From NCBI GenBank assembly GCA_039944855.1, contig JBDUXZ010000022.1, forward strand, positions 62,001 to 126,000: 64,000 nt of DNA. The letters are read 5' to 3'. Positions within the stretch are counted from its first letter, which is position 1, and each line of letters begins with the position of its first letter. Below, in pieces: positions 10,272 to 62,178 of this stretch. A program made the translations under genes and the position numbers. Under the pieces are notes generated by a model. The model was not told the origin of the DNA. It saw only the letters and a program-made list of their open reading frames with translations, and did not search any database. Source of the DNA: Rhodothermales bacterium. GTDB taxonomy: Bacteria; Bacteroidota; Rhodothermia; Rhodothermales; JANQRZ01.

Positions 10272-11602
10272 GAGGCCGTCCGGCTGAGGGCTCGCGGAGC
10301 CGGCTCCGATTCCAGCCACCCGCCGTCGAAGCCGGCACGGCGCAGCCCCTCGCGCACGTAGGGCGAGCGCCCCACCCGCTCCCAAACGAGCCCCGTGCGG
10401 TGGTTCTCGAACATCAGCGCGAGGGCGCCCTGGTCGATGCCATAAGCCCAGGGGCAGGTCCAGGCAGCCGGGTCCCCCTCCCGCGTGGGGAACGTGGGGT
10501 TGAAGGCGGACTCGAACCCGTAGGGGCTCGACGCGCCGACGTGGAGCGCCTCGAAGCGGCGGAGCGTGGGCAGCACGACCCCCGGGGCGAAGGGGAGCGA
10601 GGTGGCGGCGGCCCACGGCGCAATCGTGCCGTCGTCGGGGCCGTAGGGCGCGCCGCGGGCGCTGTACCCGAGGAAGCGCCGCTCGACGCCGTCCACGACG
10701 AGGGTGGTGGGACCGGGGCCGTGGCAGGCCGTGAACCCCCAGCAGCAGTCGCAGTAGCCTTCGAAGCCGAGGGGGTTGCGGACGGCGTACTCCCGCTGCA
10801 CGAGCGTGGCGCGACGGGAGTTCTCGAAGTAGTCGCTCCCCTTCTCGCGCATGTACGCATCCTGGATTCCACGGAAGTCGATCCAGAGGTGCGAGTACTG
10901 GTGGATGAAGAGCGGGCCGGCGTAGAGCAGTTCGTGCCCGTAGAGGCACTTCCACGCGTACGTCCGGGTCCACGCTCGATAGCTCTCGGCCTGGATCGGA
11001 TGCGTCGGCGAGCCGAGGGCGAGGACGTAGAGGATCAGGGCCTCGTCGTACCCCTGCCAGCGGTACGGGAGGAACCCCGACTCCGGCCGCCATCCGTGGG
11101 TCAGCGTGAGACCCCCGTTCAGCGCCCATAGCCAGTCGACTCGCCGGTAGAGCGCGTCGGCGACCGCGCGGATCTCCCGTTCGTCCTCGTCGTCCCCGTC
11201 GAAGTAGGACGCCGCCGTCAGCGCTCCGGCCAGGAAGAGCGCCGTGTCGATGGTCGAAAGCTCGGACTCCCACGCCCGGCGACCGGTCTCCATGTCGAGG
11301 AAGTGGTAGTAGAAGCCCCGGTGCCCGGTCGCGTCGGGGGCCTCGCCCTGCGGACCGTCGCGGAAGGAGCGGAGGACGCGGAGAGTGCGCTCGGCCGCCT
11401 CGGCGCGGGCGAGCAGGCCGCGTGCCACGGCGATGGGGTACGCCCCGAGCGCCATGCCCACGGCCGCGATGCTGCACGCCGTGCCGGGCATCGTGCTGTC
11501 CGCCACGAGGCCGGTGTGCGGGTGCGCCGCGTCGAGGAAGTACCGGAGCGCGTCGCCCTGGAGGGCGTCGAGCAGCCGGTCGGCGTCGGTGGGCGTCGTC
11601 AT
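10268..11602 (-). CDS. glucoamylase-like (glycoamylase domain, beta-glucanase-type) protein
   Basis: 444 residues without an evident signal peptide. The C-terminal two thirds match the glycoamylase-like (alpha/alpha barrel) family: [39 protein letters not shown]-like [20 protein letters not shown] and NPTFPTREG near the end. Family members hydrolyse beta-1,2-glucans or related oligosaccharides; the substrate cannot be told here. It lies between the phosphoketolase gene (4-bp overlap) and an ABC1 gene (4-bp overlap), so it is part of one operon. A cytoplasmic location beside a central carbon enzyme suggests use of an internal glycan or oligosaccharide, which is inference. Confidence 0.85.
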
Positions 11603-14013
11603 GGCTCAGCCCCCTGGATCCCCGTCGGCGAGGCGGGCTCGTGGGGCCAGACCCAGTCGCGGACCTCGGGCAGGTCCTGCCCGTGCCGGGCGATGTAGGC
11701 TTTGTGCTCGACGAGCCGGTCGCGCATGGCCTGCCGCACGTGGGGGCCGTGCGGCCCGACGGCCGGCACCCGGTCCACGACGTCCATCACGAGGTGGAAG
11801 CGGTCGAGGTCGTTGCGGACGACCATGTCGAACGGGGTCGTCGTGCTCCCCTCCTCCTTGAAGCCGCGGACGTGGAGGTTCTGGTGGTTCGTCCGGCTGT
11901 AGGTGAGCCGGTGGATGAGCCAGGGGTAGCCGTGGAAGGCGAAGAGGACGGGCTTGTCGGTCGTGAAGAGCCCGTCGAACTCGCGGTCGGAGAGCCCGTG
12001 CGGGTGCTCGCGCTCGGGCTGGAGCCGCATGAGGTCGACGACGTTGACGACGCGGACGCGGAGCTCCGGGAGGTGCCGGCGGAGGAGGTCTACGGCGGCC
12101 AGCGTCTCCAGCGTCGGGACGTCGCCGCAGCAGGCCATCACCACGTCCGGCTCGGCGTCGCGGTCGTTGCTCGCCCACTCCCAGATCCCGATCCCGGCGG
12201 CGGTGTGCTTGATGGCCGCGTCGAGGTCGAGGTACTGCGGCTCGGGCTGCTTCCCGGCCACGATGACGTTGACGTAGTGGCGGCTCCGGAGGCAGTGGTC
12301 GGTGACTGACAAGAGCGTGTTGGCGTCGGGCGGGAGGTAGACTCGGACGACCTCGGCCTTCTTGTTGACCACCACGTCGAGGAAGCCGGGGTCCTGATGG
12401 CTGAACCCGTTGTGGTCCTGCCGCCAGACGTGCGATGTGAGGAGGTAGTTGAGCGAGGCCAGCGGCCGCCGCCACGGGATGTCGCGCGTGACGTCGAGCC
12501 ACTTAGCGTGCTGGTTGAACATCGAGTCGACGATGTGGATGAAGGCCTCGTAGCACGAGAAGAAGCCGTGGCGGCCGGTCAGGAGGTAGCCCTCGAGCCA
12601 GCCCTGGCAGAGCTGCTCGCTCAGGACCTCCATCACGCGGCCGTCGGGGGCGAGGTGGTCGTCGCTCTCGAGGATCGGCCCCATCCACGCCCGGTCGGTG
12701 ACCTCGAAGAGGGCCGAAAGCCGGTTCGAGGCCGTCTCGTCCGGGCCGACCACGCGGAACGTCTCGGGGTTCATCGCCATCACGCCGCGGAGGAGCCGCC
12801 CCATCACGCGCGTCGCCTCGCCCATGACGGCCCCGGGCGCGGGGACCTCGACGGCGTAGTCGCGCCAGTCGGGCATCCGGAGGTCCTTCAGGAGCAGGCC
12901 GCCGTTGGCGTGGGGGTTCGAGCCCATGCGTCGGTCCCCCTCGGGAGCGAGGGCCGCCAGCTCGGAGACGAGGCGGCCGTCGGCGTCGAAGAGCTCCTCG
13001 GGCCGGTAGCTCCGCAGCCACGCCTCCAGCATCGCGAGGTGCTCCGGGTTCTCGGCCAGCCCCGCCAGCGGCACCTGGTGCGAGCGGAACGTGCCCTCGA
13101 CGGGGACGCCGTCGACCTCGTCCGGCCCGGTCCACCCCTTCGGCGAGCGGAGCACGATGAGGGGCCAGCGCGGACGCTCCGTGATGCCGTTCTCTCGTGC
13201 GTCCTGCTGGATGCGCTGGATCTCGGCATAGGCTTGGTCGAGGGCAGCGGCCATCCGCTGGTGCATCGCCTCGGGCTCGTCGCCCTCGACGAAGATGGGC
13301 GCGTAACCATAGCCGACGAAAAGGGCCTCCAGCTCCTCACGCGGCATCCGCGCCAGCACGGTCGGCCCGGCGATCTTGTAGCCGTTCAGGTGGAGGACGG
13401 GGAGGACGGCCCCGTCGCGGACCGGGTTGAGGAACTTGTTCGAGTGCCAGGACCCGGCGAGCGTCCCCGTCTCGGCCTCGCCGTCGCCGACGACGCAGCA
13501 GGCGAGGAGGTCCGGGTTGTCGAAGACGGCGCCGAAGGCGTGGGCGAGCGAGTAGCCGAGCTCGCCGCCCTCGTTGATGGAGCCGGGCGTCTCGGGCGAG
13601 GTGTGGCTCGGGATGCCGCCGGGGAAGGAGAACTGCCGGAACAGCCTCCGCATCCCCTCGGCGTCCTGCGTGATGTCCGGGTAGTGCTCGGTGTAGCTCC
13701 CTTCGAGGTACGTGTTGGCGACGAGGCCGGGGCCGCCGTGCCCCGGCCCGGTGACGTAGAGCACGCTCGGGCCGTGCTCGCGGATGAGGCGGTTGAGGTG
13801 GACGTAGACGAAGTTGAGCCCGGGCGTGGTGCCCCAGTGGCCGAGCAGACGCGGCTTGACGTGCTCCAGCGTGAGCGGCTCGCGGAGGAGCGGATTGGCG
13901 AGGAGGTAGATCTGTCCTACCGAGAGGTAGTTGGCCGCGCGCCAGTAGGCGTCGATGCGGCCGACCTCCTCATCGGTGAGGGGGCGTGTGTCCGTCTGTT
14001 CATCGGTAGTCAT
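11599..14013 (-). CDS. xfp: phosphoketolase (xylulose-5-phosphate/fructose-6-phosphate)
   Basis: 804 residues, full family length. Clear blocks are the N-terminal [37 protein letters not shown], the thiamine-diphosphate site [19 protein letters not shown], and the C-terminal [18 protein letters not shown] and [20 protein letters not shown]. The enzyme cleaves xylulose-5-P or fructose-6-P with phosphate to acetyl-P plus a triose- or tetrose-phosphate. Together with the neighbouring GAPDH gene it points to a carbon-saving shunt that makes acetyl-P. It begins with the ATG at 14013 and overlaps the following glucoamylase-like gene by 4 bp. A 66-bp gap separates it from the upstream Lgt-like gene. 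Confidence 0.97.
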
Positions 14014-15814: not shown

Positions 15815-17119
15815 TCACAGCCAGCGCCGAGCGGTCCAGCCGACCAGCTCAGCGATCATCCCGCCCCATGGGCGTCTCGACCAGCCGGGAGCGGTGAGCT
15901 CCACCGCATCGCCCAGGTCGTTCCGGAACTGTTCTTCGAGTGCCGTGCATAGCCCCCGGTTCGCGGAGAAGAGGTTGAGCTCGTAGTTGACGAAGAAGCT
16001 GCGGTAGTCCAGGTTCGCCGTGCCTACCGTCGCCGCCACCCCGTCGACGACGGCGGTCTTGGCGTGGAGCACACGTGGCTGGTATTCGAAGACCCGAATG
16101 CCCGCCGAGAGCAGCGTCCCGTAGGTGGCCCGCGCTGCCCAGCGCGCGACCGGGACGTCGCTCTTTCCGGGGAGCAACAGGCGCACGTCCACGCCGCGCC
16201 GGGCGGCCCGCACGAGCTCGTTCTGAGTGCGGCGGTCCGGCACGAAGTAGGGGGTCGTGACGAAGAGACGCCGCTCGGCGCGCTGCAGGAGCCGGTCGTA
16301 CAGGCAGTGGACCTGATGTCGGCAGATGCGGGAATGGTTGGGGATGAGCGCGTCTCCGTCCTGGGTGCCCGTCGGGGCTGCGCCCCCGCGCTCGCCCGCC
16401 CAGAACGCCTCGGACAACTCCGACGCGCGCGTGGCTAGAGCGCCGCGCAACCGAATGTGGGTGTCCCGCCAGCGCCCCGGCCCGAACGCCGACCTCGAGC
16501 TCTCGCGGTGGAGGTTGAAGCCGCCCACGTACGCCTCGCGGCCGTCGACGACGAGGAGCTTGCGGTGATTGCGCCGGTAGAACCGGGAGGGCTGGCGCCA
16601 GCTCCACCGGCGAAAGCGGCGGACCACCACGCCCTGTTGCCGCAGGTAGCGCTCGAGGCCGCGCGAGAACGAACCCATCGAGCCCGCCGCGTCCACCATC
16701 AGGCGCACGCGGAGGCCAGCGCGGGCTCGAGCGGCGAGGGCCTCGCCGATGCGCCAGCCCACCTCGTCGGCGGCGTAGATGTAGGTCTCCACGTCTACGC
16801 TTCGCCGGGCCCCTCGGATGGACGCGACCATGGCGTCGTATAGGTCGTCGCCCTCGGTAAAGAGCGCGTAGTCGCTCGTGCCGCCCGTCGGCCAGGGCAC
16901 ACACTCGACCCCGGAGTGCTTCCCGCACCGGGGCTCGGTATCGGTCGCTGCGCTCCGTGCGGTCGTGGCCCCGCTGTGAGCGAGACGTGGCACCCTCGCG
17001 TCGCCTTTGGGCGCAATGACGGCTGCCGACGGGGCGCGCACGCCATCGGCCGGCCGAGCAGGCGGGGTCTGCATGAGAGCGCCTCGTGGAGGGCTGGCGG
17101 TGTCGGAGGGTGCCCTCAT
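15815..17119 (-). CDS. phospholipase D superfamily protein, cardiolipin-synthase-like
   Basis: 434 residues with two HKD motifs: NHRKLLVVDGREAYVGGFN (from about residue 184) and HAKTAVVDGVAATVGTANLD near 365. The pattern TPYFVPDRRTQNELVRAARRGVDVRLLLPGKSD is typical of bacterial cardiolipin synthases, which join two phosphatidylglycerols. Unlike standard Cls it lacks two N-terminal membrane helices; the first ~75 residues are Ala/Pro/Arg-rich and low complexity. The start chosen overlaps the MFS gene stop (ATGA), with an internal ATG at residue 16 as alternative. It is the last gene of the long metal/lipid operon. Confidence 0.87.
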   Translation of the reverse strand: MRAPSDTASPPRGALMQTPPARPADGVRAPSAAVIAPKGDARVPRLAHSGATTARSAATDTEPRCGKHSGVECVPWPTGGTSDYALFTEGDDLYDAMVASIRGARRSVDVETYIYAADEVGWRIGEALAARARAGLRVRLMVDAAGSMGSFSRGLERYLRQQGVVVRRFRRWSWRQPSRFYRRNHRKLLVVDGREAYVGGFNLHRESSRSAFGPGRWRDTHIRLRGALATRASELSEAFWAGERGGAAPTGTQDGDALIPNHSRICRHQVHCLYDRLLQRAERRLFVTTPYFVPDRRTQNELVRAARRGVDVRLLLPGKSDVPVARWAARATYGTLLSAGIRVFEYQPRVLHAKTAVVDGVAATVGTANLDYRSFFVNYELNLFSANRGLCTALEEQFRNDLGDAVELTAPGWSRRPWGGMIAELVGWTARRWL

Positions 17120-18384
17120 GAGCCGTTGCGCGAGGAGTGGAGGGGAACTGGAACGGGTGCGGGGCGCGGAGTGTGGCGCAGGCCTACGGTCCCAGCGGCG
17201 ACGGCCAGGGCGACCCCACCGGCGGCCAGGAAGGGCAGGTCCACCTGCCAGGCGAAGAGGAGGCTCCCGACGAGCGGGCCGAGGATCTGCCCCAGACCGC
17301 CGGCGGTGCCCAGCAGCCCGAGCCCCGTGCCCGCCTGGGGGCCGCTGCGGTCGGCGGCGAGCGTGAGGAGGTTCGGCGTGACGAAAGCAACCCCGAGCGC
17401 CAGCAGGCTCACGGCCGCGAGCACGGCCGGGACGCGAGTGAGGACGGGTAGCAACAACAACCCCACGCCCAGCATCCCGAAGCCCAGCGCGACCTGGACC
17501 CGCACCCGGACCCGCCCGCTCAGCCACCCGACGGCCCCACCCTGGAACACGGCCATCACCAGCCCGCACAGCGCGAAGGCGACGCCGATCTCTCGCAGCC
17601 CGAAGCCAAGCACGCGGTCGGCGTAGAGCGCGAAGACGGCCTCGAAGAGCGTGAGCGCGGCCTGGGCGACGAGCACGAGGGCGAGCACGCCGCCGAGCCG
17701 TCGGGCCAACAGGCCCCACCGCACCGGCACGCGGGCTACCTCTTCCGGCGCGGCGGCGCGCCTCGGCGCCGGGAGCGACTGGCCTGGGAGGTAGCGGGCC
17801 ACCAGCGGTACCGCGGCCAGCGTCAGGCCCGCCGCCACGAAGAAGGGGATCGAGAACCCGTCGAAGACGAGGTGCCCCGACGTGAGGGCCACGTGCCATG
17901 CCTCGCGCGCCAGGAGCCCGCCGAGCGCGGGTCCGGCGACGAAGCCGAAGCTGACGGCCGTGCCCAGCCATGCCATCGCCCGGCCCCGCTCCCCCTCCGG
18001 GACAGCGTCGGCGATGGCCGCGCCGGCGGCCACGACGAGCGCCGCCGCGAACGCACCGCCGGCCAGGCGGGCCCCGTAGAGGAGTCCGAGCGAGGTACCC
18101 AGCCCGAAGGCCACTTGCGAGAGGGCGACCCCGACGAGGCCGAGCATCACGAGCGCCTTTCGGCCGTGCCGGTCTGACCACCATCCCCACAGCGGGGCCA
18201 GCACCAGCTGCGTCACCGCATATGCACTCGTGAGCGCCCCCACGTGAAGGGCCACCCGCGCCTGCGTCGCCGCCGGGCCGAGGGTGAGCCGCTCGACAAA
18301 CGCCGGCAGCACCGGGAGCGTGAGGCCGAATCCGATCATGGCGAGGAAGAGGGCGAGGAAGAGGAGGAGCAGATGACGTGGCAT
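17116..18384 (-). CDS. MFS family exporter
   Basis: 422 residues with about twelve hydrophobic segments. The motif-A loop after helix 2 is GWWSDRHGRKALVMLG, and helices 1 (LLLFLALFLAMIGFGLTLPVLP) and 4-5 look like those of TetA/MdtG-type drug exporters. Substrate unknown. The ATG chosen precedes PRHLLLLFL; a longer frame would add 11 residues. It lies 7 bp downstream of the CDF gene and overlaps the phospholipase D gene by 4 bp, so it is part of the operon. Confidence 0.88.
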   Translation of the reverse strand: MPRHLLLLFLALFLAMIGFGLTLPVLPAFVERLTLGPAATQARVALHVGALTSAYAVTQLVLAPLWGWWSDRHGRKALVMLGLVGVALSQVAFGLGTSLGLLYGARLAGGAFAAALVVAAGAAIADAVPEGERGRAMAWLGTAVSFGFVAGPALGGLLAREAWHVALTSGHLVFDGFSIPFFVAAGLTLAAVPLVARYLPGQSLPAPRRAAAPEEVARVPVRWGLLARRLGGVLALVLVAQAALTLFEAVFALYADRVLGFGLREIGVAFALCGLVMAVFQGGAVGWLSGRVRVRVQVALGFGMLGVGLLLLPVLTRVPAVLAAVSLLALGVAFVTPNLLTLAADRSGPQAGTGLGLLGTAGGLGQILGPLVGSLLFAWQVDLPFLAAGGVALAVAAGTVGLRHTPRPAPVPVPLHSSRNGS

Positions 18385-18391
18385 CAGGGGG

Positions 18392-19441
18392 TTACCGGGA
18401 CGGGGCGTAGAAGCCATTCGCCGAGGGCCGGTCAGGGCCGGTCAACACCGAACCGGAGCCGCGCGCGGCGGCCACCGACGTCATCGTGGCCGGAGTCTCG
18501 TCCGTCGCCCACGTCGCGTCGATGGCGCGCGCCTCTTCCCGTTCCAGACACTCCGTCTCGAGTTGGACCGTCGAGAAGTAGACGTCGAAGTCGTCCCGGA
18601 GTACCTCGAAGATGCGCCGCTGGAGTGCCTGCCGTTCGACGCCTCGGTCCACGAGGGCGTGCAGCGAGACGACGTTCTTGCCGGTCGTGAGCGCCCAGGC
18701 GTGGAGGTGGTGCGCCTCGCGCACGCCCGGGAGCGCCTCGACGGCGTCCTTTATGGCCCCGAGGTCGAGGTCGTCGGGGACGGCCTGGAGCAGGATCTTG
18801 AGCGAGCCCTTGATGATCCCCCACGAGGCCCACACGAGCACGACGCCGAAGCCCATCCCCAGGATCGGATCGATGGCGAGGAAGCCCGTGAACCGGATGA
18901 CCAGGGCGGCGACGATGATGAGGAGGCTCCCCACGAACGTCTGCATGACGTGCCAGAAGGCCCCCTGCATGTTGAGGTTCCCCTTCTGCCGGGCGTAGAG
19001 GAGCCGGAGCGCGATGACCTCGGTCACGAGGCCACCCGCCGCCGCCCACAGCATCGGCCCGGTCTCGACCTCCATCGGGTCGCGCAGCCGCATCGCCCCC
19101 ATCCAGAGCACGAGCGCGGCCATGCCGAGGAGGAAGAGCCCGTTGAAGAGCGCCCCGACGATCTCGGCGCGGATGAGCCCGTAGGAGGCCCGGTCCGTCG
19201 CCGGGCGCTCAGCGTACCGACCTGCGACGAGGGCGACGAGCACGCCGCCGACGGCCGAGAACGTGTGGAAGGCGTCGGACGTGACGGCCACAGACCCGGT
19301 CCAGAGCCCGATGGCGAGCTCGACGACGAAGTAGACCCCGGTGAGGAGGCCGGAAATCTTGAGGGCGCGGGCGTTCCCGGCCGTCACGGCCGGGGGGCCG
19401 TGGCCGGCGGAGCCACCGGAGGAGGGGTGCGCGGGGTTCAT
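18392..19441 (-). CDS. cation diffusion facilitator (CDF) family transporter with altered metal site
   Basis: 349 residues. Six membrane helices, then a cytoplasmic domain with HHLHAWALTTGK, place it in the CDF family of proton-coupled metal exporters. In Zn-type members helices 2 and 5 each carry an HxxxD metal site. Here they read H-T-F-S-A (in SDAFHTFSA) and H-V-M-Q-T (in GAFWHVMQT), so both aspartates are replaced while both histidines remain. The transported metal may therefore differ from zinc, or the protein may be inactive. It is followed by an MFS gene (7 bp) and preceded by the DUF5676 gene (13 bp). The start is the ATG before NPAHPS. Confidence 0.88.
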   Translation of the reverse strand: MNPAHPSSGGSAGHGPPAVTAGNARALKISGLLTGVYFVVELAIGLWTGSVAVTSDAFHTFSAVGGVLVALVAGRYAERPATDRASYGLIRAEIVGALFNGLFLLGMAALVLWMGAMRLRDPMEVETGPMLWAAAGGLVTEVIALRLLYARQKGNLNMQGAFWHVMQTFVGSLLIIVAALVIRFTGFLAIDPILGMGFGVVLVWASWGIIKGSLKILLQAVPDDLDLGAIKDAVEALPGVREAHHLHAWALTTGKNVVSLHALVDRGVERQALQRRIFEVLRDDFDVYFSTVQLETECLEREEARAIDATWATDETPATMTSVAAARGSGSVLTGPDRPSANGFYAPSR

Positions 19442-19454
19442 AGCTCGTAGGTGT

Positions 19455-19769
19455 TCAACGCGAGAGATCGTAGAGGCCGCTTTGTGCCGACCGGGCAGCG
19501 CCACCCGTGGCTGGGGTCCCCCAACGGCGGTAGAGCGCGTTGTAGACGAGGGCGAACCCGCCCCCGAGGTAGACGCCCCAGAGGAAGCTCTCGACCAGCC
19601 CCAGCAGGAAGCTGCCGAAGCCGATCCACTCGAACGCCGGGAGGACGATCTCGAGGAACTGGTGCATGTGGACGCTCTCGGGCGTGACGAGTCCGTAGGC
19701 GATGCAGAGGAGGTAGCTCAGCGTGGTGAACAGGGCAGCGGCCCAGGTGGTGAGGCGGAGGTTCAGCAT
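19455..19769 (-). CDS. DUF5676 family small membrane protein
   Basis: 104 residues with two to three hydrophobic helices. The pattern (aromatic helix 1 with LSYLLCIAYGL, PESVHMH loop, FEWIGFGSFLLGLVESFLWG, then NALYRRW) is that of the DUF5676 membrane proteins, which commonly accompany metal-export genes. Function unknown. It lies 13 bp upstream of the CDF gene and downstream of the His-rich DUF2933-like gene. Confidence 0.75.
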   Translation of the reverse strand: MLNLRLTTWAAALFTTLSYLLCIAYGLVTPESVHMHQFLEIVLPAFEWIGFGSFLLGLVESFLWGVYLGGGFALVYNALYRRWGTPATGGAARSAQSGLYDLSR

Positions 19770-19801: not shown

Positions 19802-19963
19802 TCAGTGCCGGTGCCTGGTAGGCTCGTCGGAGGGCGGCGGAATGCTGTCGTGTGCGCCGTGTCCGCCGTGGCTATGGCCGCCGTGCCCGTGGCCGAACAG
19901 GTGCATCGCGATGAAGGCGATGAAGAGGAGTACGAAGAACCAGTTTTCAGCGAGCCAGTCCAT
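19802..19963 (-). CDS. 53-residue His-rich membrane protein, DUF2933-like
   Basis: Starts MDWLAENWF, has one membrane helix (FFVLLFIAFIAMHLFG), then HGHGGHSHGGHGAHDS, a His cluster that would sit at the membrane surface, and a tail ending PTRHRH. This is the usual build of DUF2933-type proteins (a hydrophobic helix ending in a MHLF-like turn followed by an H/G run), found in copper and metal loci. It overlaps the end of the patatin gene by 17 bp. Confidence 0.65.
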   Translation of the reverse strand: MDWLAENWFFVLLFIAFIAMHLFGHGHGGHSHGGHGAHDSIPPPSDEPTRHRH

Positions 19964-20897
19964 GTCGGGGTACGGAGTGGTGGGTGGAGAGCGAGTCTGC
20001 CGGAAGCGGTGGGGCCTCGGGGTCGAGGAGGGCCGCGAGGACGGTGCGGTGGGCGCGGACGACGCGGGCACCGGCCGCGACGCACTCGCGCCGGGCGCCG
20101 AAGTCGAGCGTGTCGATGGTGCGGCGGAAGGCAGGGCGTAGCACGAGGTCGGCCTGCTCGAAGCCGGCGGCGGCGTGGCTCAGGTTGCAGACCTCGACGG
20201 CCCGCCGGAGCGCCTGGAGGCCGTTGCGGACCTCGGCGCTCGCGAGGGCCTGCCCCGGGTCGACGGCGATCACCACGGGGTGGCCCACCTCCCGGGCGAC
20301 GCCCACGGGGGCGAGGTCGGCGTAGGCTCCGTCGGCCAGCAGGAGGCCGTCTCGTTCGAGCGGCGGGAGCACGCCGGCGAGGGCCACGCTCGCGTAGACG
20401 GCCTCGGCCGCGTCGCCCGTCCGGATCACGTGGCGCCGCCCGCCACGGAGGTCGGTGGTGCTGACGGCGACGGGCAGGCGAGCGTCCTCCAGGTTTCGGC
20501 CGAGGGTGAGCGTGCGGAGGGCACGGAGCCCCGCCTCGCGGGCGGGCACGCCGATGCCCCACCCCGTCAGGAGCCGGTACGCGAACCGGGCACCGAGGCG
20601 ACGCGCCCGGAGCCTGAGGCGGAGCGAGTCCCGCTGCTGCTCGGCCGTAGGCATCGGGGCCGGGAACGCCCCCGTATCCATCGCCAGGAGCGCCGGGTAC
20701 CAGTCCTCGCGAAGTCCGTAGCCCACGCTGACGGCCGCGCCCATCGAGACGCCCACGAGCGCGGACGGGTGGTAGCCGTCGGCTTCGAGCGCGCGGAGCA
20801 CGCCGACGTGGGCGAAGCCCCGCGCACCGCCGCCGGCCAGCACGAGCGTGAAGGGCCGGTGGGCAGAAGCGGTGGGACGGGGGGCGGCGGTGGACAT
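19947..20897 (-). CDS. patatin-like phospholipase
   Basis: 316 residues. The oxyanion loop is GGGARGFAHVG (22-32), the nucleophile elbow GVSMG with Ser51, and the dyad aspartate lies in LLADGAYADLAPV, the bacterial DGA variant of DGG. It would deacylate membrane phospholipids or similar esters in the cytoplasm; no signal peptide. The start is the ATG before STAAPR, 14 bp after the site-2-protease gene. It belongs to the metal/lipid operon, beside the cyclopropane synthase and phospholipase D genes. Confidence 0.9.
   Translation of the reverse strand: MSTAAPRPTASAHRPFTLVLAGGGARGFAHVGVLRALEADGYHPSALVGVSMGAAVSVGYGLREDWYPALLAMDTGAFPAPMPTAEQQRDSLRLRLRARRLGARFAYRLLTGWGIGVPAREAGLRALRTLTLGRNLEDARLPVAVSTTDLRGGRRHVIRTGDAAEAVYASVALAGVLPPLERDGLLLADGAYADLAPVGVAREVGHPVVIAVDPGQALASAEVRNGLQALRRAVEVCNLSHAAAGFEQADLVLRPAFRRTIDTLDFGARRECVAAGARVVRAHRTVLAALLDPEAPPLPADSLSTHHSVPRHGLAR

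Positions 20898-24735: not shown

Positions 24736-24739
<4 letters not shown>
23561..24739 (-). CDS. FAD-dependent oxidoreductase with Cys-rich C-terminal tail (paralogue 2)
   Basis: 392 residues from a GTG start that overlaps the stop of the P-type ATPase gene (GTGA). The FAD motif is VHVIGAGPAGLAAALTLAR, the substrate side RFDGDFQGLENWST and the C-terminal flavin loop ERAGFQDALWGFGLRYAMHSG. Its tail has CGEEGCACLWC (C-x4-C-x-C-x2-C, from about residue 358), the same spacing as paralogue 1. Overall order and blocks are collinear with paralogue 1, so the pair arose by tandem duplication. Other possibilities are a lipid desaturase or reductase acting on isoprenoids. No membrane helix is evident. 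Confidence 0.82.
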
Positions 24740-26934
<2,195 letters not shown>

Positions 26935-33101: not shown

Positions 33102-34595
33102 CTAGACGTATCGGACTTCGCGGGCCATCCCCGCCTCCAGATGGTAGACGTTGTGGCAGTGGAAGAACCACCGGCCGGGGTTGTCGGCGACGAACTCGAA
33201 GGCCGCGCGGCCCATGTGCGCCGGGACGAGGACGGTGTCCTTCCGCACGCCGCCCGAGCGGAGGTCGCCGGTGCGGAAGAAGTGGCCGTGGAGGTGCATC
33301 GGGTGGATCATCGGGCTGCGGTTGAACATGGTCACCCGGACGCGCTCACCCTCGCGGATCTCCAGCGGCTCGGCGTCGGGGTAGGCCTGCCCGTCGATGG
33401 TCCACGCCGACGACATCATCCCGCCCGAGAGCGTGAGGTCGAACGTGCGGTCCGGCCGTGCGGGGGGCGGGGCGTCCTCGACGCCGCGGAGGTCGTCGAG
33501 GCGGAGGAGCCGGCCGTTGCCCAGACCGTCTGGGAGCGCCCCGGCGGGCGGACGCGCCGCTGCGGCATCGCGGTAGCGCAGGACGGCCTGGGCCGGGGCG
33601 CTGTCGCCCTCGACCGTAGCCGCCGCGATCGGCCACGCGCCGGGGTTGTCGGCCTCGAGGACGACGTCGTAGCGTTCGCCCATGCTGACGAGGAGGGCGT
33701 CGACGGTGACGGGGCGGACGGGGTAGCCGTCGGCGTGGGTGACGGTGAGGCGGTGGCCGCCGACGGCGAAGCGGAAGGTCGTCGCGCCGGAGGGGTTCAT
33801 GACCCGCATCCGGAGCCGCTCGCCGCGCCGGACCTCGACGGCGACGGGGTCGCTGGGGAGCCTGCCGTTGATGAGGAGGCCGGCGTACGGGGGCACCTGG
33901 CCGCCCATCATCCCGCCTCTCCTCCCCTGGCCCATCATGCCACGCCCGCCCATCATGCCGCCGCGCCCTCCACCGGTAGGACTGTCAGCGAGGGGCTCGG
34001 GCGTGCCCGGCAGGTAGTCGTCGAGGACGAGCGTGACCTCGCGATCGTAGGCCACGTGCGGCTCGCGCTCCTCGACGATGAGGGGGGCGATGAGCCCGCG
34101 GTCGAGCTGGAGGCCGACGTGGCTGTGGTAGAGGTAGCTCCCGGCCGGCTCGGCGGCGAAAGCGTAGACGAACTCCCCGCCCGGCGGGATCGGCTCCTGC
34201 GTCAGCCCCGGCACGCCGTCCATCGGGTTGGGCACGGGGATGCCATGCCAGTGGATCGTGGTGTCCGCCGGAAGCCGGTTCACGACCGTCGCCTCCAGCC
34301 GTTGGCCCTCCTGCAATCGGATCTCCGGCCCGGGGTACTCGCCGTTGTAGCCCCACGTGCGCCACACCTCGCCGGGGCCGACCTCGACCTCGATCTCCTC
34401 TGCCACGAGGCGGACCCGACGGGCCGGGCCCGCCGAGGCAGCGGCCTCTCGGGCGACCTCGTAGCTCGGCGCGCCAGGCACCGATACCGGCGCAGTGCGC
34501 GCCTTCGGGGAGGGGGTAGAGGTGTCTGTCCGGCAGCCGACGAGGACGGCGGCCCCGGCGAGGGCGGTCTGTTGGAGGAAGTGGCGACGGTCCAT
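33102..34595 (-). CDS. multicopper oxidase, CueO/CopA-like, Tat/lipoprotein-type N-terminus
   Basis: 497 residues. The N-terminus MDRRHFLQQTALAGAAVLVGC combines an RR motif with a lipobox-like LVGC, so it may be exported by Tat and anchored by lipid. Copper ligand blocks are HWHGIPVPNP, YLYHSHVGLQ, HPMHLHGHFF and FHCHNVYHLEAGM, giving the trinuclear and T1 sites. A Gly-Met insert (MMGGRGMMGQGRRGGMMGG) near residue 210 resembles the Met-rich inserts that raise Cu(I) oxidation in CueO. It would oxidise periplasmic Cu(I). Downstream is the Met-rich protein gene (52 bp), upstream the DUF302 gene. Confidence 0.93.
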   Translation of the reverse strand: MDRRHFLQQTALAGAAVLVGCRTDTSTPSPKARTAPVSVPGAPSYEVAREAAASAGPARRVRLVAEEIEVEVGPGEVWRTWGYNGEYPGPEIRLQEGQRLEATVVNRLPADTTIHWHGIPVPNPMDGVPGLTQEPIPPGGEFVYAFAAEPAGSYLYHSHVGLQLDRGLIAPLIVEEREPHVAYDREVTLVLDDYLPGTPEPLADSPTGGGRGGMMGGRGMMGQGRRGGMMGGQVPPYAGLLINGRLPSDPVAVEVRRGERLRMRVMNPSGATTFRFAVGGHRLTVTHADGYPVRPVTVDALLVSMGERYDVVLEADNPGAWPIAAATVEGDSAPAQAVLRYRDAAAARPPAGALPDGLGNGRLLRLDDLRGVEDAPPPARPDRTFDLTLSGGMMSSAWTIDGQAYPDAEPLEIREGERVRVTMFNRSPMIHPMHLHGHFFRTGDLRSGGVRKDTVLVPAHMGRAAFEFVADNPGRWFFHCHNVYHLEAGMAREVRYV

Positions 34596-34640
34596 GAGAG
34601 GGCCTCGGTAGATTCAGGAGCGACAGGTCAGCATGCGCAG

Positions 34641-36040: not shown

Positions 36041-36808
36041 CTATCGCCAGAGACGGACGCCGACGACGAAGAGCACCTCGCTGGTCTCCTCGCCCTCGGC
36101 CTCGGCGAAGTCGGCCGCGCCGCCGAACCGGTTCAGCCAGCTCACGCCGACGTACGGAGCGATCTCGCGCCGGATCTCGTAGCGGAGCCGTAGCCCGAGC
36201 TCGACGTCGTTCAGCCCGGCCCCGACGCCCCACTCCTCGACCTCCTGGAGCGCGACGTTGACCTCGGCCTCGGGCTGGACGACGAGGCGCTGCGTGAGGA
36301 GGAGGTCGTAGGATCCCTCGAACCGCGCCGAGAGGTCGCCCTCGGCCGAGAGGAAGAGCGCGGGCTCGACCTCGAACCAGTACGGCGCGAGTCCTTCGAG
36401 CCCGACGGCGAGGAGGGGCCGGGCGCGCACGTCGCCCCCGCCGAACTCGGTGTCGAGCCTCAGCCCGGCCTGGGCCTCGAAGTAGGGGCTGATGAGGCGG
36501 CTGTAGAGCGCTTGGGCCTCGGCCTCGCCTTCGCCCTCGGCGACGAGCCCCTCGCCCTCGGCCTTGAGCCAGAACCGGGTGTAGTCGTTGCCGATCCGGT
36601 AGAACCCTTCGAGGGCGGCGGGGACGCCGTCGGCCGCAGGGGCCACCTCGAAGAGGTCGAGGAGGGCGAGGCTGTAGAGGTGCTGGTCGCCGGCGACGCC
36701 CTCGTCCGGGCGGAAGGCGGGGTACTCGGGGAAGGGCGGCTCGTCCTGGGCCACGGCGGGCGCGGCGGCGAGAAGGAGCATGAGGGACAGAAGAAGGAAG
36801 CGAGGCAT
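36041..36808 (-). CDS. copB: copper resistance protein B, outer-membrane
   Basis: 255 residues with a signal peptide (LLLSLMLLLAAAPAVAQ). The body fits CopB: early LYSLALLDLFEVA and FYRIGNDYTRFWLKAEGEG, then beta strands such as LISPYFEAQAGLRLDTEF, and the terminal APYVGVSWLNRFGGAADFAE and VLFVVGVRLWR. CopB is an outer-membrane barrel encoded after CopA in copper operons. Here it lies 53 bp downstream of a CopA-type oxidase gene on the same strand, which supports the call. The usual N-terminal Met/His-rich stretch is absent; the linker is short and acidic. Confidence 0.9.
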   Translation of the reverse strand: MPRFLLLSLMLLLAAAPAVAQDEPPFPEYPAFRPDEGVAGDQHLYSLALLDLFEVAPAADGVPAALEGFYRIGNDYTRFWLKAEGEGLVAEGEGEAEAQALYSRLISPYFEAQAGLRLDTEFGGGDVRARPLLAVGLEGLAPYWFEVEPALFLSAEGDLSARFEGSYDLLLTQRLVVQPEAEVNVALQEVEEWGVGAGLNDVELGLRLRYEIRREIAPYVGVSWLNRFGGAADFAEAEGEETSEVLFVVGVRLWR

Positions 36809-36861
36809 AGCAGCAGGCGAGGAGATGAGCGAGAGTGCGGTCGGGGGCCAACCCTACGGGG

Positions 36862-38772
36862 TCACCCCCGCGACGGGTAGAGTGCGGCGATCTGGTCGGG
36901 ACCCCACTCCTCGGCGCGCTGGACCATCGCCACCCTGAACATGCCGAGCTCCATGTGGTAGAGCACGTGGCAGTGGAAGGCCCACGGCCCGAGCGCGTCG
37001 ACCTCGACGAGGAGCGAGAGCCGCTCGGCCGGCTTCACGATGACGGTGTGGACGCGGGGGATGCGCTCGCCGTGGCCGTTCTCGAGCTCCATCCACATCC
37101 CGTGGAGGTGCATCGGGTGGTTCATCATCGTGTCGTTCACCATCGTGAGCCGCACGCGCTCGCCGTAGACGAGCGGGATGAGCGGCTCCTCGGCGTAGGT
37201 CTTCCCGTTGATCGACCACATGTAGCGCTCCATGTTGCCGGTGAGGTGGAGCTCGATCTCGCGGTCGGGCGCGCGGCGCGGCTCCGCGTGGAGCGCCTTG
37301 AGGTCGGTGTAGACGAGGACGCGGTGGGGGGCGTCTTCCAGCCCGACGCCGGGCTCGTGGAGGCGGCTCCGCGTGACGTCCGGGGCCATCGCATTGGCCG
37401 GGCCGTGGCCGTCTGCGCCGTGGGGCGTCGGCTCGGGGAGCGTGCCGGGCGGGCGGAGGCCGGCGTGGTCGACGCCCGGCATCGCCACTTCGTCCGTGTT
37501 CATGCCGTGGTCCATCCCCCCGTGACCCATCACCGGAGCAGCGGCCTCGGGGTGGTCGAGCGCAGGAGGCTCGGCCATCCCCTCCATCGCGCCATGATCC
37601 ATGCCGCCGTCGCCCATGTCCATCCCGGCGTGGTCCATCCCGGCGCCGCCGTGGGCCATCCCCATGTCCATCATCGTGAGGCTCGGGCGCTCGCGCTGCT
37701 CGGGGACCGGGGCTGTCATGCCGGGACGCGGGGCGAGCGTGCCACGCGCGTAGCCCGAGCGGTCCATCGACTCGGCGAAGACGGTGTAGGCGCGGTCACC
37801 GGGCTCGACGACGACATCGTAGGTCTCGGCGATGCCGATGCGGAACTCGTCCACGGTGACGGGCTCGACGTGCTGCCCGCTCGCCTGCATGACGGTGAGC
37901 GGGAGGCCGGGGATGCGGACGTCGTAGAACGTCCCCGCACTCGCGTTGACGAAGCGGAGGCGGACGCGCTCGCCGGGGCGGAAGAGCGCGCTCCAGCCGG
38001 GCTCCGGCGCCTGCCCGTTCATGAGGAAGGTGTACGTCGCCCCCGTGATGTCGGCGATGTCGGTGGGGTCCATCCGCATCCCGTCCCAACTCAGCCGGTC
38101 CCCAAGCGGCATCCCCTCGCCCGAGAGCAGGCCGGCGAGCGTCTGCCGCTGGAAGTTGTAGTAGTTCGGCCGCGCCTTGAGGTTGTCGAGCACGGCGTGG
38201 GGGTCCTCGAACGTCCAGTCCGAGAGGACGACGACGAGCTCGCGGTCGAACCGGTAGGGCTCACTGCCGGCCGGGTCGATCACGAGCGGGCCGTAGTGGC
38301 CGAGCTGCTCCTGGAAGGCCGAGTGGCTGTGGTACCAGTACGTCCCGAACTGCCGGATCGGGTAGCGGTACTCGAAGGTCGAGCGCGCGGGGATGCCGGG
38401 GAAGTTCACGTTCGGCACGCCGTCCTGGCTGTTGGGGAGGATGAGGCCGTGCCAGTGGACCGAGGTGTCCTCGTCCAGCCGGTTGTGGACGCGGATGATG
38501 GCCTCGTCGCCCTCGGTGAAGCGCAGCAGCGGGCCGGGGACCCCGCCGTTGATCGTGACGGCCTCGCCCTCGTCGCCGCCGAAGAACAGCTTCGTCCGGT
38601 CGATGTAGAGGTCGTACTCGACGAGGCTGCCGGCGCGGCGGGTCGGGGCGAGGCCGGGGGGGCGAAGCGGGTCGCTGGGGAGGGCGGAGCGCGCCCACGC
38701 GGGCGTGACGGCGCTGACCCCGGCGAGGAGGCCGAAGGCGGAGGCGTTGCGGAGGAAGAGGCGGCGGTTCAT
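36862..38772 (-). CDS. copA: multicopper oxidase CopA
   Basis: 636 residues. A twin-arginine-type N-terminus (MNRRLFLRNASAFGLLAG) suggests Tat export. Copper ligand blocks are HWHGLILPN, YWYHSHSAFQEQ, HPMHLHGMWMELEN and FHCHVLYHMELGMFR. Between domains 2 and 3 is a Met/His-rich insert (MDMGMAHGGAGMDHAGMDMG and onward) typical of CopA and proposed to bind several coppers. It oxidises or sequesters periplasmic copper. Downstream comes CopB (53 bp). Upstream is a 187-bp gap with a dyad operator at 38869-38888. Confidence 0.95.
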   Translation of the reverse strand: MNRRLFLRNASAFGLLAGVSAVTPAWARSALPSDPLRPPGLAPTRRAGSLVEYDLYIDRTKLFFGGDEGEAVTINGGVPGPLLRFTEGDEAIIRVHNRLDEDTSVHWHGLILPNSQDGVPNVNFPGIPARSTFEYRYPIRQFGTYWYHSHSAFQEQLGHYGPLVIDPAGSEPYRFDRELVVVLSDWTFEDPHAVLDNLKARPNYYNFQRQTLAGLLSGEGMPLGDRLSWDGMRMDPTDIADITGATYTFLMNGQAPEPGWSALFRPGERVRLRFVNASAGTFYDVRIPGLPLTVMQASGQHVEPVTVDEFRIGIAETYDVVVEPGDRAYTVFAESMDRSGYARGTLAPRPGMTAPVPEQRERPSLTMMDMGMAHGGAGMDHAGMDMGDGGMDHGAMEGMAEPPALDHPEAAAPVMGHGGMDHGMNTDEVAMPGVDHAGLRPPGTLPEPTPHGADGHGPANAMAPDVTRSRLHEPGVGLEDAPHRVLVYTDLKALHAEPRRAPDREIELHLTGNMERYMWSINGKTYAEEPLIPLVYGERVRLTMVNDTMMNHPMHLHGMWMELENGHGERIPRVHTVIVKPAERLSLLVEVDALGPWAFHCHVLYHMELGMFRVAMVQRAEEWGPDQIAALYPSRG

Positions 38773-38868
38773 GGCGGAGAGTGGCAGCAGGGGCAGAGAG
38801 CGGCAGTAGGGGCAGAGGTGTCGGCTAGAGTGTTCTACAGGTGGGAGCGCGCGGAGTGCGCGGAGAGC

Positions 38869-38888
38869 ACCTTAAAAGCCCCAAAGGT
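38869..38888 (-). promoter_or_regulatory. predicted metal-responsive operator (dyad copy 3)
   Basis: ACCTTA-N8-AAAGGT, one base from perfect, with the same 20-bp spacing as the other copies. It lies 97 bp upstream of the CopA-type oxidase start. The rest of the 187-bp gap shows no other clear element. Confidence 0.6.
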
Positions 38889-59359: not shown

Positions 59360-60772
59360 ATGGTATTCCCCCCGCTCGCGCTGCGCCGACTGGCGTGGCT
59401 CGGGGCCGCCGCCGCATTCGTGGCCTTCGCCACCGGCTGCGCCGCTCCCTACGACCTCACCTATCCCGAACCGCGCCCGCTCGGCCCGGTCACCGCTTCC
59501 TACGTTCCGACTCCCATCGAGAGAGTCGAGTCTGAGAACGGTGCACCCAACAGCGTGGCGCTCGCAGAGCCGCTCACGCTGGACGAGGCCGTCGCCCTCG
59601 CGCTGGCGCAGAACCCCGACCTCCGCGCGGCGGCCCACGAGGTGCGCGCCCGCGAAGGCGAAGCGTACCAGGCCGCTCGCCTGCCCAATCCAGAGCTAGA
59701 GATCGACGCCGAAGAGTTCGGTGGGAGTGGCGACCGCACGGGCACGGATGCGGCCGAGGTCGGGGCGGGGGTCTCCCAGACGATCGAGCTCGGCGGGGAC
59801 CGCCGCGCCCGTGCCGCCGTCGCCGCCCGTGGGGCTGAGCTGGGTGCGTGGAGCTTCGAGGCCGCCCGCCTCGACCTCATCACGCGGGTCCACCAGGCCT
59901 TCGCGTCCGTGCTCGCGGCCGAGACGCGGCTCGCCCTCGCCGAGGAGCAGCGCGACATCGCGGCCCGCTTCGCCGACGCCGTGACCCGCCGCGCTGAGGC
60001 GGGGGCCATCTCGCCGCTGGAGGCCCGCCGTTCGGCGGTGGCTGCCGCTACGGCCGAGGCCACCTTCGGGCGTGCCCGCCGCGCGCTCGACGCCGCCCGT
60101 GCTCGCCTCGCTCCGCTCATCGGTCTCCCGTCGGGCGGTCTCGACGTGGCGGGCGATCTCGACCGGCTAGGCGTCGTCCCGCCCTACGAGCGGCTCCTCC
60201 CCTTCCTCGCGCTCAACCCCGACGTGGCCCGGTACCGGACGGCGCTCGCGCAGGCCGAGGCGCAGGTGGCTCTCGAACGAGCCCGCCGCATCCCGGACCC
60301 GACGCTCCGGGCGGGCGGGACCTACTTCAACGAGGTGGGCGAGGCTGCTGTCACCGCGGGCGTATCGATCCCGATCCCTCTCTTCGACACGAACCGGGGC
60401 GCGATCCAGGCTGCGCGTGCGCGAGTGAGCGGGACGGCGGCCGAGGCCGAGGCCGCGCTGCTCCGCGCAGAGCGCGACCTGGCCGAGGCCTACGGCACCT
60501 ACGCCGCCGCTGCCGAGGCCGCACGCATCCTCCGCGACGACGCCCTCCCCAACTCCCGTGCTGCCTTCGAAGGCATAGAGACGGGCTATCGGGAAGGCGA
60601 GTTCGACCTCCTCGCCGTGCTCGATGCGCAGCGCGCGCTCGTCGAGACGCAGAACGCCCTCGCCGACGCCCTCGCCGACGTCGCCCAGTCCCGCGCCGCC
60701 GTCGAGCGTCTCATCGCCACCCCTCTCGAAGCCGCCGCCGACGGCGTGCTCCCCAACCCCGACAACGAGTAG
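59360..60772 (+). CDS. TolC family outer-membrane lipoprotein channel (CzcC-like)
   Basis: 470 residues. The N-terminus has a lipobox (FVAFATGCAAP), so it is lipid-anchored. The two OEP repeats are seen (LAQNPDLRAAAHEVRAREGE, then LALNPDVARYRTALAQAEAQV), and LPNPELEIDAEEFGG with SQTIELGGDRRARAAV in the first repeat. It forms the exit tunnel of the tripartite pump. It is preceded by the small Cys protein gene (115 bp) and followed by the adaptor gene after 4 bp. Confidence 0.94.
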   Translation: MVFPPLALRRLAWLGAAAAFVAFATGCAAPYDLTYPEPRPLGPVTASYVPTPIERVESENGAPNSVALAEPLTLDEAVALALAQNPDLRAAAHEVRAREGEAYQAARLPNPELEIDAEEFGGSGDRTGTDAAEVGAGVSQTIELGGDRRARAAVAARGAELGAWSFEAARLDLITRVHQAFASVLAAETRLALAEEQRDIAARFADAVTRRAEAGAISPLEARRSAVAAATAEATFGRARRALDAARARLAPLIGLPSGGLDVAGDLDRLGVVPPYERLLPFLALNPDVARYRTALAQAEAQVALERARRIPDPTLRAGGTYFNEVGEAAVTAGVSIPIPLFDTNRGAIQAARARVSGTAAEAEAALLRAERDLAEAYGTYAAAAEAARILRDDALPNSRAAFEGIETGYREGEFDLLAVLDAQRALVETQNALADALADVAQSRAAVERLIATPLEAAADGVLPNPDNE

Positions 60773-60776
60773 CGCC

Positions 60777-62120
60777 ATGAACAAGCACACGAACCCCACC
60801 CCCCCGGTGACGCCGCCCTCTCGGCCCGACCGTTCCGTTCCCCCCCCTTCCGAACCAACACCGACCGCGCTCGGCTCCCGCGCCCGCCTGCGGACCTACC
60901 TCGCCGAGAACCGCCGCGCGCGCTTCCTCGCACTCGGCATGGGCCTCCTCGCCGTCGTCGTCCTCGTCTGGTGGTTCGTCGCACGGAGCGGCGAACCGCT
61001 CGGGGACGATGCCACCATCGAGACCGACGAGCACGCGGAAGAAGGGGGCGAGCACGCCGAGGAAGAGCTCGTCGTCCTCACCGCAGCCGAGGTCGAGGAG
61101 TTCGGGATCGACGTGCGGACGGCGGGGCCGGGCACGATGGCCGTCGAGAAGGAGCTGCCGGGCGAGGTCCGCGCGAATGAGGACCGCTACGCCCACGTCA
61201 CGCCCCGCCTCCCCGGCATCGTCCGGAGCGTGAGCGTGAGCGTCGGCTCATACGTCCGGCAGGGCCAGACGATGGCCGTCATCGAGAGCCGCGAGCTGGC
61301 CGACCTCTCGGCCGAGTACCTCGCCGCCGTGGAGCGGGAGGAGCTGGCACGGACCTCGTTCGAGCGCGAGGAGCGGCTCTACGAGCAGGAGATCACCTCG
61401 CAGGCCGACTACCTCGAGGCGCGGCAGGAGCTGGCCGAGGCCCGCATCCGCACGCGCTCGGCCCGGCAGAAGCTCATCGCGCTCGGGTTCTCCGATGGCT
61501 ACATCGAGTCGCTCCCGCAGCGGGGCGAGCGGAGCCTCGTTACCTACCCCCTCACGGCCCCGCTCTCGGGCCGTGTCCTCGAGAAGCACATCGTCGCCGG
61601 CGAGGCCGTTGAGGCCGACACCGACGCCTTCGAGGTAGCCGACCTCTCTACCGTTTGGGTGGACCTCTCCGTCTACCAGCGCGACCTCGGCGTCGTCCGC
61701 GAGGGGCAGGAGGTCGTTGTCGACGCCGGGCCGGCGCTCGGCCGCACGCGCGGGACGATCTCCTACGTCCGTCCCGTCGTGGGGGAGGAGACGCGGACGG
61801 CGATTGCCCGCGCTGTCATTCGGAACCCGGAGGGGATGCTCCGCCCCGGCCAGTTTGTCACCGGCCTCATCGCCGTAGATGAGGCCGAGGTCGAGATCGT
61901 CGTGCCCGAGACGGCCGTGCTCGACGTCGAGGGCACGCCCACCGTCTTCGTCCAGACGGGCGAAGGCTTTGTTCCTCGCCCCGTCGAAGTCGGCGACCGC
62001 ACGGCCGACGAGGTGGCGATCACGAGCGGGCTCTCGGCCGGCGAGCGCTACGTCGCCGCCGGAGCCTTCGCGCTCAAGGCCGAGCTCGGAAAGGAGGCTT
62101 TCGGCGACGACGACGACTGA
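60777..62120 (+). CDS. RND efflux periplasmic adaptor subunit (CzcB-like)
   Basis: 447 residues. One N-terminal anchor (FLALGMGLLAVVVLVWWFV), an acidic His/Glu linker, then the lipoyl-like half ANEDRYAHVTPRLPGIVRSV, the helical hairpin (LERTSFEREERLYEQEITSQAD-like region) and PLTAPLSGRVLEKHIVAGE, with a beta-barrel region that follows (VDLSVYQRDLG, ETRTAIARAVIRNP, PETAVLDVEGTPTVFV). No heavy-metal-binding Cys domain as in the left adaptor. It ends in Asp-rich GDDDD. Start is the ATG at 60777, 4 bp after the channel gene. Confidence 0.93.
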   Translation: MNKHTNPTPPVTPPSRPDRSVPPPSEPTPTALGSRARLRTYLAENRRARFLALGMGLLAVVVLVWWFVARSGEPLGDDATIETDEHAEEGGEHAEEELVVLTAAEVEEFGIDVRTAGPGTMAVEKELPGEVRANEDRYAHVTPRLPGIVRSVSVSVGSYVRQGQTMAVIESRELADLSAEYLAAVEREELARTSFEREERLYEQEITSQADYLEARQELAEARIRTRSARQKLIALGFSDGYIESLPQRGERSLVTYPLTAPLSGRVLEKHIVAGEAVEADTDAFEVADLSTVWVDLSVYQRDLGVVREGQEVVVDAGPALGRTRGTISYVRPVVGEETRTAIARAVIRNPEGMLRPGQFVTGLIAVDEAEVEIVVPETAVLDVEGTPTVFVQTGEGFVPRPVEVGDRTADEVAITSGLSAGERYVAAGAFALKAELGKEAFGDDDD

Positions 62121-62178
62121 TGGCGCGCCGACGCCCCCAATCCCTCGCACATCGAAGCACGACTGAACTCCCAACTCA

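Follow-up and report, generated by a model that had tools for sequence, protein, structure and literature searches.

A CDF-family protein encoded in the window, the whole stretch of 64,000 nucleotides analysed here, belongs to a conserved clade in which both aspartates of the A-site are replaced and both histidines are kept, and whose genes were found near copper-resistance genes far more often than the genes of canonical CDFs. The clade proteins probably handle copper, not zinc. Our preferred reading, to which we give a probability of roughly 0.45, is that they form a copper-island CDF subfamily whose remodelled site exports Cu(I) (or Ag(I)) from the cytosol by proton exchange. The ions that CDF carriers are known to handle are divalent, among them Zn, Mn, Fe, Co, Ni and Cd, and the four-residue A-site is regarded as the core of the CDF mechanism. 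A conserved branch without the A-site aspartates, spread with copper resistance, offers a way to test how the charge of the site relates to the valence of the ion. If the preferred reading is true, a proton-driven carrier joins the bacterial copper-resistance toolkit, and the public annotation of the clade genes, as plain CDF or even CzcD, would mislabel the metal.

The window protein is an intact CDF under purifying selection

The open reading frame is intact, with an ATG start and without an inner stop, and encodes a CDF membrane domain and a ZT_dimer domain (Table 1). The protein scored above the cut-offs of Pfam Cation_efflux (122.9 bits, cut-off 26.6), Pfam ZT_dimer (45.7 bits, cut-off 26.7) and TIGR01297 (222.5 bits, cut-off 82.35), and its 179.6 bits to the ZitB equivalog NF002923 lay below the cut-off of 408. 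An AlphaFold2 model built from a 40-row alignment (mean pLDDT 85.6, pTM 0.76) matched the structures of ZnT1, ZnT7, ZnT8 and SLC30A10 at Z 20-25, with ZnT7 as the best PDB match (Z 25.1, rmsd 3.0, 267 aligned), followed by ZnT8 D110N/D224N (Z 24.7, rmsd 3.0, 290 aligned) and ZnT1 apo (Z 24.6, rmsd 3.3, 279 aligned); YiiP 3h90 was matched at Z 20.3 (rmsd 3.1, 266 aligned). As modelled, the window protein has the CDF fold. Comparisons of its gene with four relatives gave dN/dS values of 0.13-0.35, which indicate purifying selection. In two genomes of different genera in one family (loci L007 in G053 and L008 in G039), the CDF genes were without synonymous or non-synonymous difference, which suggested recent transfer or shared MAG material.

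Table 1 Features of the window that bear on the CDF gene, its site residues and its neighbours.
Feature	Position	Strand	Basis
CDF-family protein, 349 aa, HA-HT site	18392..19441	-	Pfam profiles and translation
Asp56 codon, kept; SLC30A10 Asp40 by numbering	19274..19276	-	alignments
His59 codon, helix 2, kept	19265..19267	-	alignments
Ala63 codon	19253..19255	-	Ala 31/31 clade vs Asp 90/90 canonical
Met107 codon, helix 3, clade-specific	19121..19123	-	Met 31/31 clade vs 2/90 canonical
Met114 codon, helix 3	19100..19102	-	Met 30/31 clade; Glu 86/90 canonical
Glu141 codon, helix 4, gained acid	19019..19021	-	Glu 31/31 clade vs Asn 86/90 canonical
His164 codon, helix 5, kept, invariant column	18950..18952	-	alignments
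Thr168 codon	18938..18940	-	Thr 31/31 clade vs Asp 90/90 canonical
Phe289 codon, C-terminal domain	18575..18577	-	Phe 29/31, Met 2/31 clade vs His 90/90 canonical
MFS transporter, overlaps CDF stop by 26 bp	17116..18417	-	ORF bounds, profile
DUF5676 two-helix protein, upstream, same strand as CDF	19455..19769	-	45.8 bits, cut-off 27.6
Small His-rich membrane protein, 53 aa from ATG at 19963	19802..20071	-	weakly DUF2933-like
Cu-type P1B ATPase of copper island	24736..26934	-	CopF 405 vs ZntA 236 bits
Multicopper oxidase	33108..34613	-	sequence/profile matches
CopB	36047..36853	-	248.5 bits, cut-off 27
CopA-type multicopper oxidase	36868..38871	-	588 bits to pMOL30 CopA

Both A-site aspartates are replaced throughout a clade

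Residues 55-63 of the window CDF read SDAFHTFSA and residues 164-168 read HVMQT. The preliminary description, which had reported HTFSA and HVMQT in helices 2 and 5 with both histidines kept and both aspartates gone, was exact on the translation and on the alignment. Homologues were taken from 60 related genomes, a genome collection (21 loci) and a plasmid search (50 records, 10 of them taken for analysis). Members of the clade are about 50-86% identical to the window CDF, and a profile HMM built from 35 homologues scored them at 392-531 bits, canonical CDFs at 168-263 bits and FieF-like proteins below 80 bits. The 16 positions inspected, H59, A63, E141, H164, Q167 and T168 among them, were the same in every clade row, and every row scoring 168-263 bits carried HD-HD or HD-ED.

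Residues were counted after a reduction at 85%, which left 31 clade sequences (from 41 distinct) and 90 canonical sequences. The HA-HT site was present in all 41 distinct clade sequences and both A-site aspartates in all 90 canonical ones; the alignment of homologues that had been proposed as a check thus found the Ala63/Thr168 form conserved in 31/31. Neither outcome named beforehand as speaking against the description, shifted aspartates or relatives that have them, occurred. Misalignment was rejected because the HxxxD/HxxxD of CDFs from other genomes, 26-33% identical, falls in these same columns. The aspartates are missing from relatives above about 50% identity and present in the canonical CDFs, at identities of 33% or less. 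A loss of two charges had also been described; it holds for the two aspartates and was incomplete for the site, in that helix 4 gained Glu141 in 31/31. On these alignments the clade cavity would be two Asp poorer and one Glu richer, so that the acid appears partly relocated.

Other positions of the site region are kept or changed in an equally uniform manner. Asp56, which lies one turn ahead of His59, is shared by clade and canonical CDFs; Asp191 is kept in the clade, as are Asp56, His59 and His164, and Ser172 is, with Asp56, invariant there. Position 167 is Gln in 31/31 clade sequences and Gln is outside the five commonest canonical residues, and Met107 and Met114 lie on one face of helix 3, two turns apart. 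When aligned to ZnT1, Glu141 falls on Asn127, and the ZnT1 and SLC30A10 numberings agree in the site region (His43 vs Asn43, Asp47 in both), so by numbering Glu141 would match Asn127 of SLC30A10. The same ZnT1 alignment puts the C-terminal-domain His of ZnT1 one residue off clade position 289.

The clade departs from published descriptions of CDF sites. In the available text of PMC1868760, the Zn- and Fe/Zn-CDF groups have HxxxD in helix 5, whereas all 31 clade sequences have HxxxT. The quartets HD-HD, ND-DD, DD-DD, DD-HD, EN-HD, HH-DH and HD-(E/H)D are named for CDF clades in the accessible part of Barber-Zucker 2017 (PMC5703985), and HA-HT matches none of the quartets named in that text, its clades 13, 14, 17 and 18 aside. 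A FieF-like CDF (L110, in G420) reads DD-HT in the profile alignment, a weak one of 62 bits, and is possibly a second case of a helix-5 Asp to Thr change.

The published CDF signature of helix 2, [HDNEL]-X3-[DH], is broken at its [DH] position, since residue 63 is Ala in 31/31, and such a break would fit a decaying or non-functional CDF that hitch-hikes on copper islands. The same residues are, however, fixed in 31/31 and the dN/dS values are those given above, and we consider decay very improbable; sporadic local loss or a pseudogene was rejected on the same two observations. The suggestion in the preliminary description that the protein might have no cargo at all is likewise disfavoured by purifying selection and by conservation across phyla.

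The clade is uncommon, appears to have one origin and is spread across phyla

The clade was found in 2/395 genomes of the window's phylum, 4/337 genomes of the class of Stappia and 7/321 genomes of the class of Wenzhouxiangella, and is uncommon in these wider genome samples. By record title, its members come from Bacteroidetes, Alpha- and Gammaproteobacteria, Campylobacterales, Acidobacteria and Chloroflexi. A tree was built from 41 sequences of the clade, a sample of 45 canonical ones and 11 FieF-like ones. The clade formed one branch in it (support 100/100, recovered in all 200 bootstrap trees), and the stem of this branch has a length of 1.55. When 29 diagnostic columns were removed, the clade still made up one side of a branch, with a weaker SH-aLRT of 82, and was no longer nested inside the HD-HD group. 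As judged from these trees, the HA-HT clade has one origin, and the mixing of phyla in its branching suggests horizontal transfer.

Clade genes are associated with copper-resistance genes

Neighbouring genes were compared with a copper list set a priori, namely pMOL30 CopF, CopG (DUF411), CopI, CopD, CopC, CopB, CopA and DUF2933 together with E. coli CopA, and ZntA was added to separate Zn from Cu ATPases. Controls were 60 canonical CDF loci hand-picked from hits in the same genome searches. A core copper gene lay within 4.5 kb at 27/43 clade loci, among which L174 and L040 are one locus and several others are close kin, vs 2/60 canonical loci. After clustering, the counts at 4.5 kb were 23/35 vs 2/56 loci (at 85%) and 13/18 vs 2/52 (at 75%), and within 8 kb of the unclustered loci they were 31/43 vs 2/60, the clade flanks being the shorter (median 9.9 vs 15.8 kb). 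The suggestion of a changed cargo, perhaps Cu(I), is thereby supported, both by conservation throughout the clade and by this controlled association.

Cu-type P1B ATPases were found within 4.5 kb at 12/43 clade loci and no canonical locus (0/60), with a near tie in the Cu/Zn call for the ATPase of L052 (271 vs 264 bits), whereas Zn-type ATPases showed the reverse (0/43 vs 2/60). Within the same distance, multicopper oxidases were present at 11 clade loci vs 1 canonical locus, DUF411 at 10 vs 1 and CopB at 8 vs 0 (43 vs 60 loci). At ten clade loci (L050, L051, L055, L059, L062, L064, L066, L176, L178 and L179) and none of the 60 controls, the ORF bounds of a core copper gene on the same strand were within 100 bp of the CDF gene; in L064 the ATPase gene precedes the CDF gene, and in L062 the CDF gene is followed by DUF411 with a 4-bp overlap.

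CueR-like MerR regulators (4/43 clade vs 4/60 canonical loci) and CusA-like pumps (3/43 vs 4/60) were not enriched. At twelve of the 43 clade loci, several with housekeeping neighbours, a core copper gene was absent from the surrounding 8 kb or from the flank available. A Pfam scan of 20 of 107 neighbour ORFs (14 loci, mostly copper-negative) gave no further copper family; it returned SHOCT, cytochrome c, EamA, a two-component pair, phosphoketolase and housekeeping genes.

On plasmids, where numbers are small, a core copper gene was found within 4.5 kb at 8/10 clade loci and 1/7 canonical loci (the latter out of 41 records), and within 8 kb at 10/10 and 2/7. This control tempers a general metal-island effect as the cause of the copper association and does not remove it.

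Candidate mechanism of Cu(I) export and its alternatives

Export of Cu(I) by proton exchange is our first choice in view of the copper setting, the kept histidines, a site of reduced charge and the added methionines. The clade proteins would be a ZitB/CzcD-like CDF branch carried in copper-resistance islands and plasmids, through which Cu(I) (or Ag(I)) would leave the cytosol in exchange for protons and be passed on to periplasmic proteins of the neighbouring genes (multicopper oxidase, CopB or DUF411). The site would keep its two His, with Ala and Thr in the places of the divalent-ion Asp; one acid would have moved to helix 4, as Glu141 beside the kept Asp56, and two Met would have been added in helix 3. 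Less negative charge and more soft ligands would suit a monovalent soft ion. We infer transport itself, copper as the ion, the direction, the coupling and the ion-holding residues alike. More tentatively, the clade may be the first CDF subfamily for the monovalent soft ion Cu(I)/Ag(I), reached through the Asp swap, the helix-4 acid, the added Met and the copper-island spread.

According to the available texts, a single substitution of either Asp abolishes Zn function in PtdMTP1 (PMC1868760), and protonation of both Asp disrupted Zn coordination in ZnT1 simulations (PMC11549101). Because both Asp are naturally missing here, the usual Zn cycle is unlikely in the clade protein. That N127 belongs to the Mn site of SLC30A10 (PMC13272668) shows that a residue at this place in helix 4, where the clade would have Glu141, can bind metal. 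Some points weigh against a Cu(I) site: Met107 and Met114 may only pack helices, and Asp56 and Glu141 could hold a divalent ion. In the accessible part of PMC6308992, the CzcD protein PEPIB2_31 of E. mobile BBCC367 was seen only under zinc, which would speak against copper if this protein is a clade member. Subscription papers apart, the literature searched described neither a CDF with an HA-HT site nor a comparable copper CDF, and we found no test of the transport of a clade protein.

A divalent CDF with a shifted site, in which Asp56, Glu141, His164 and Ser172 would bind Cu(II), Mn(II) or Zn(II) for H+ antiport, is ranked second after Cu(I) export, and we regard it as rather unlikely. The comparison is with SLC30A10, whose Mn site consists of D40/N127/D248/S252 in the available text of PMC13272668; these residues fall on the same positions by numbering. 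The invariance of Asp56 and Ser172 in the clade and an acidic position 141 in 31/31 agree with such a site, whereas Thr168 as the equivalent of Asp248, and neighbours that are copper detoxification genes, not Zn ATPases, argue against it.

Zrg17 and ZnT6 are held to be non-transporting CDF subunits. A regulatory or sensing subunit of this type, pairing with a canonical CDF, would be consistent with the broken helix-5 motif, as the CDF outliers with such a motif in the available text of PMC1868760 include a Zrg17-like cluster (TxxxS/T). However, no other HD-HD CDF was detected in 10/13 clade genomes (E up to 1e-3 or 1e-5), several of which are MAGs and maybe incomplete. An HD-HD partner was found in none of the five genomes of the first set (G000, G032, G038, G039 and G053), where no second match exceeded 46 bits while HD-HD proteins score at least 110, and in 3/8 of the second set; in eight further clade genomes, searched at E 1e-60 alone, four had an HD-HD CDF. 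Obligate pairing with a canonical CDF is disfavoured by the same 10/13 count, and a subunit role is quite improbable.

Another copper-stress cargo on a CDF scaffold (candidates include a copper chelate, a thiol and a lipid) would fit a site in which helices 2 and 5 have each lost their charged metal ligand, and the VTT and DMT/EamA-family membrane genes near some loci. Both His are nevertheless invariant across phyla, and to our knowledge CDFs are known only as metal carriers, which makes this cargo distinctly improbable.

Comparison with known systems

The clade resembles the ZitB/CzcD/ZnT-like Zn-CDFs in its fold, six helices, C-terminal ZT_dimer, both site His, Asp56, Asn100 and Asp191, and differs from them in lacking both site Asp, in the changes Asn141 to Glu and Glu114 to Met, and in Phe/Met in place of the C-terminal-domain His. 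Zrg17-like and ZnT9-like CDFs are eukaryotic. Like them, the clade has a broken helix-5 HxxxD, although the forms differ: TxxxS/T in the Zrg17-like and VxxxD in the ZnT9-like proteins (PMC1868760, available text), and HxxxT in the clade. SLC30A10 (ZnT10), a Mn exporter, also departs from HD-HD and, as its available description has it, uses the helix-4 position equivalent to Glu141 in its Mn site; unlike the clade, it retains Asp in helix 5 (D248) and carries Asn in place of the helix-2 His, and its metal is probably a different one.

The CopF/CopA-type Cu(I) P1B ATPases of cop islands share the same encoded partners with the clade (MCO, CopB and DUF411), but have a fold unrelated to CDF and are ATP driven. 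DUF411 follows the ATPase in pMOL30 and the CDF in some clade operons. On Roseobacter-group plasmids (L060, L061, L062 and L065), we observed a recurring DUF6010 - VTT - CDF - DUF411 arrangement with a Crp/Fnr regulator nearby and often also a Rieske petA homologue.

Gene neighbourhood in the window

The Cu ATPase, CopB and the two multicopper oxidases of the window are located upstream of the CDF gene on the same strand. By ORF bounds the ATPase is 5.0 kb from the CDF gene, which makes the window copper-negative at 4.5 kb and copper-positive at 8 kb. DUF2933 and DUF5676 had been named as neighbours in the preliminary description; DUF5676 stood, and the small His-rich protein scored 13.1 bits to DUF2933, below the cut-off of 21. 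A DUF5676 relative was near the CDF gene at 5/43 clade loci, all of the window's order, and the same count and restriction were obtained for the MFS gene.

A phosphoketolase gene (window 11599-14013; L175:4629-7088) was near the CDF gene at 5/43 clade loci, four of the window's order and one distant, vs 0/60 controls. Genes for a CusB-like adaptor and an RND pump of the CusA type begin near the right end of the window (60579-63999). About 3 kb past the window end (L003, G000:C22:129034-129534) and at L004 (G000:C8), two paralogues were found with an N-terminal metal-binding-like domain (MDCAAEE) and, as second part, a CDF-like membrane half with DSLDMLAD / DSLDNLAD; from their sequences, both look like HMA-CDF fusions.
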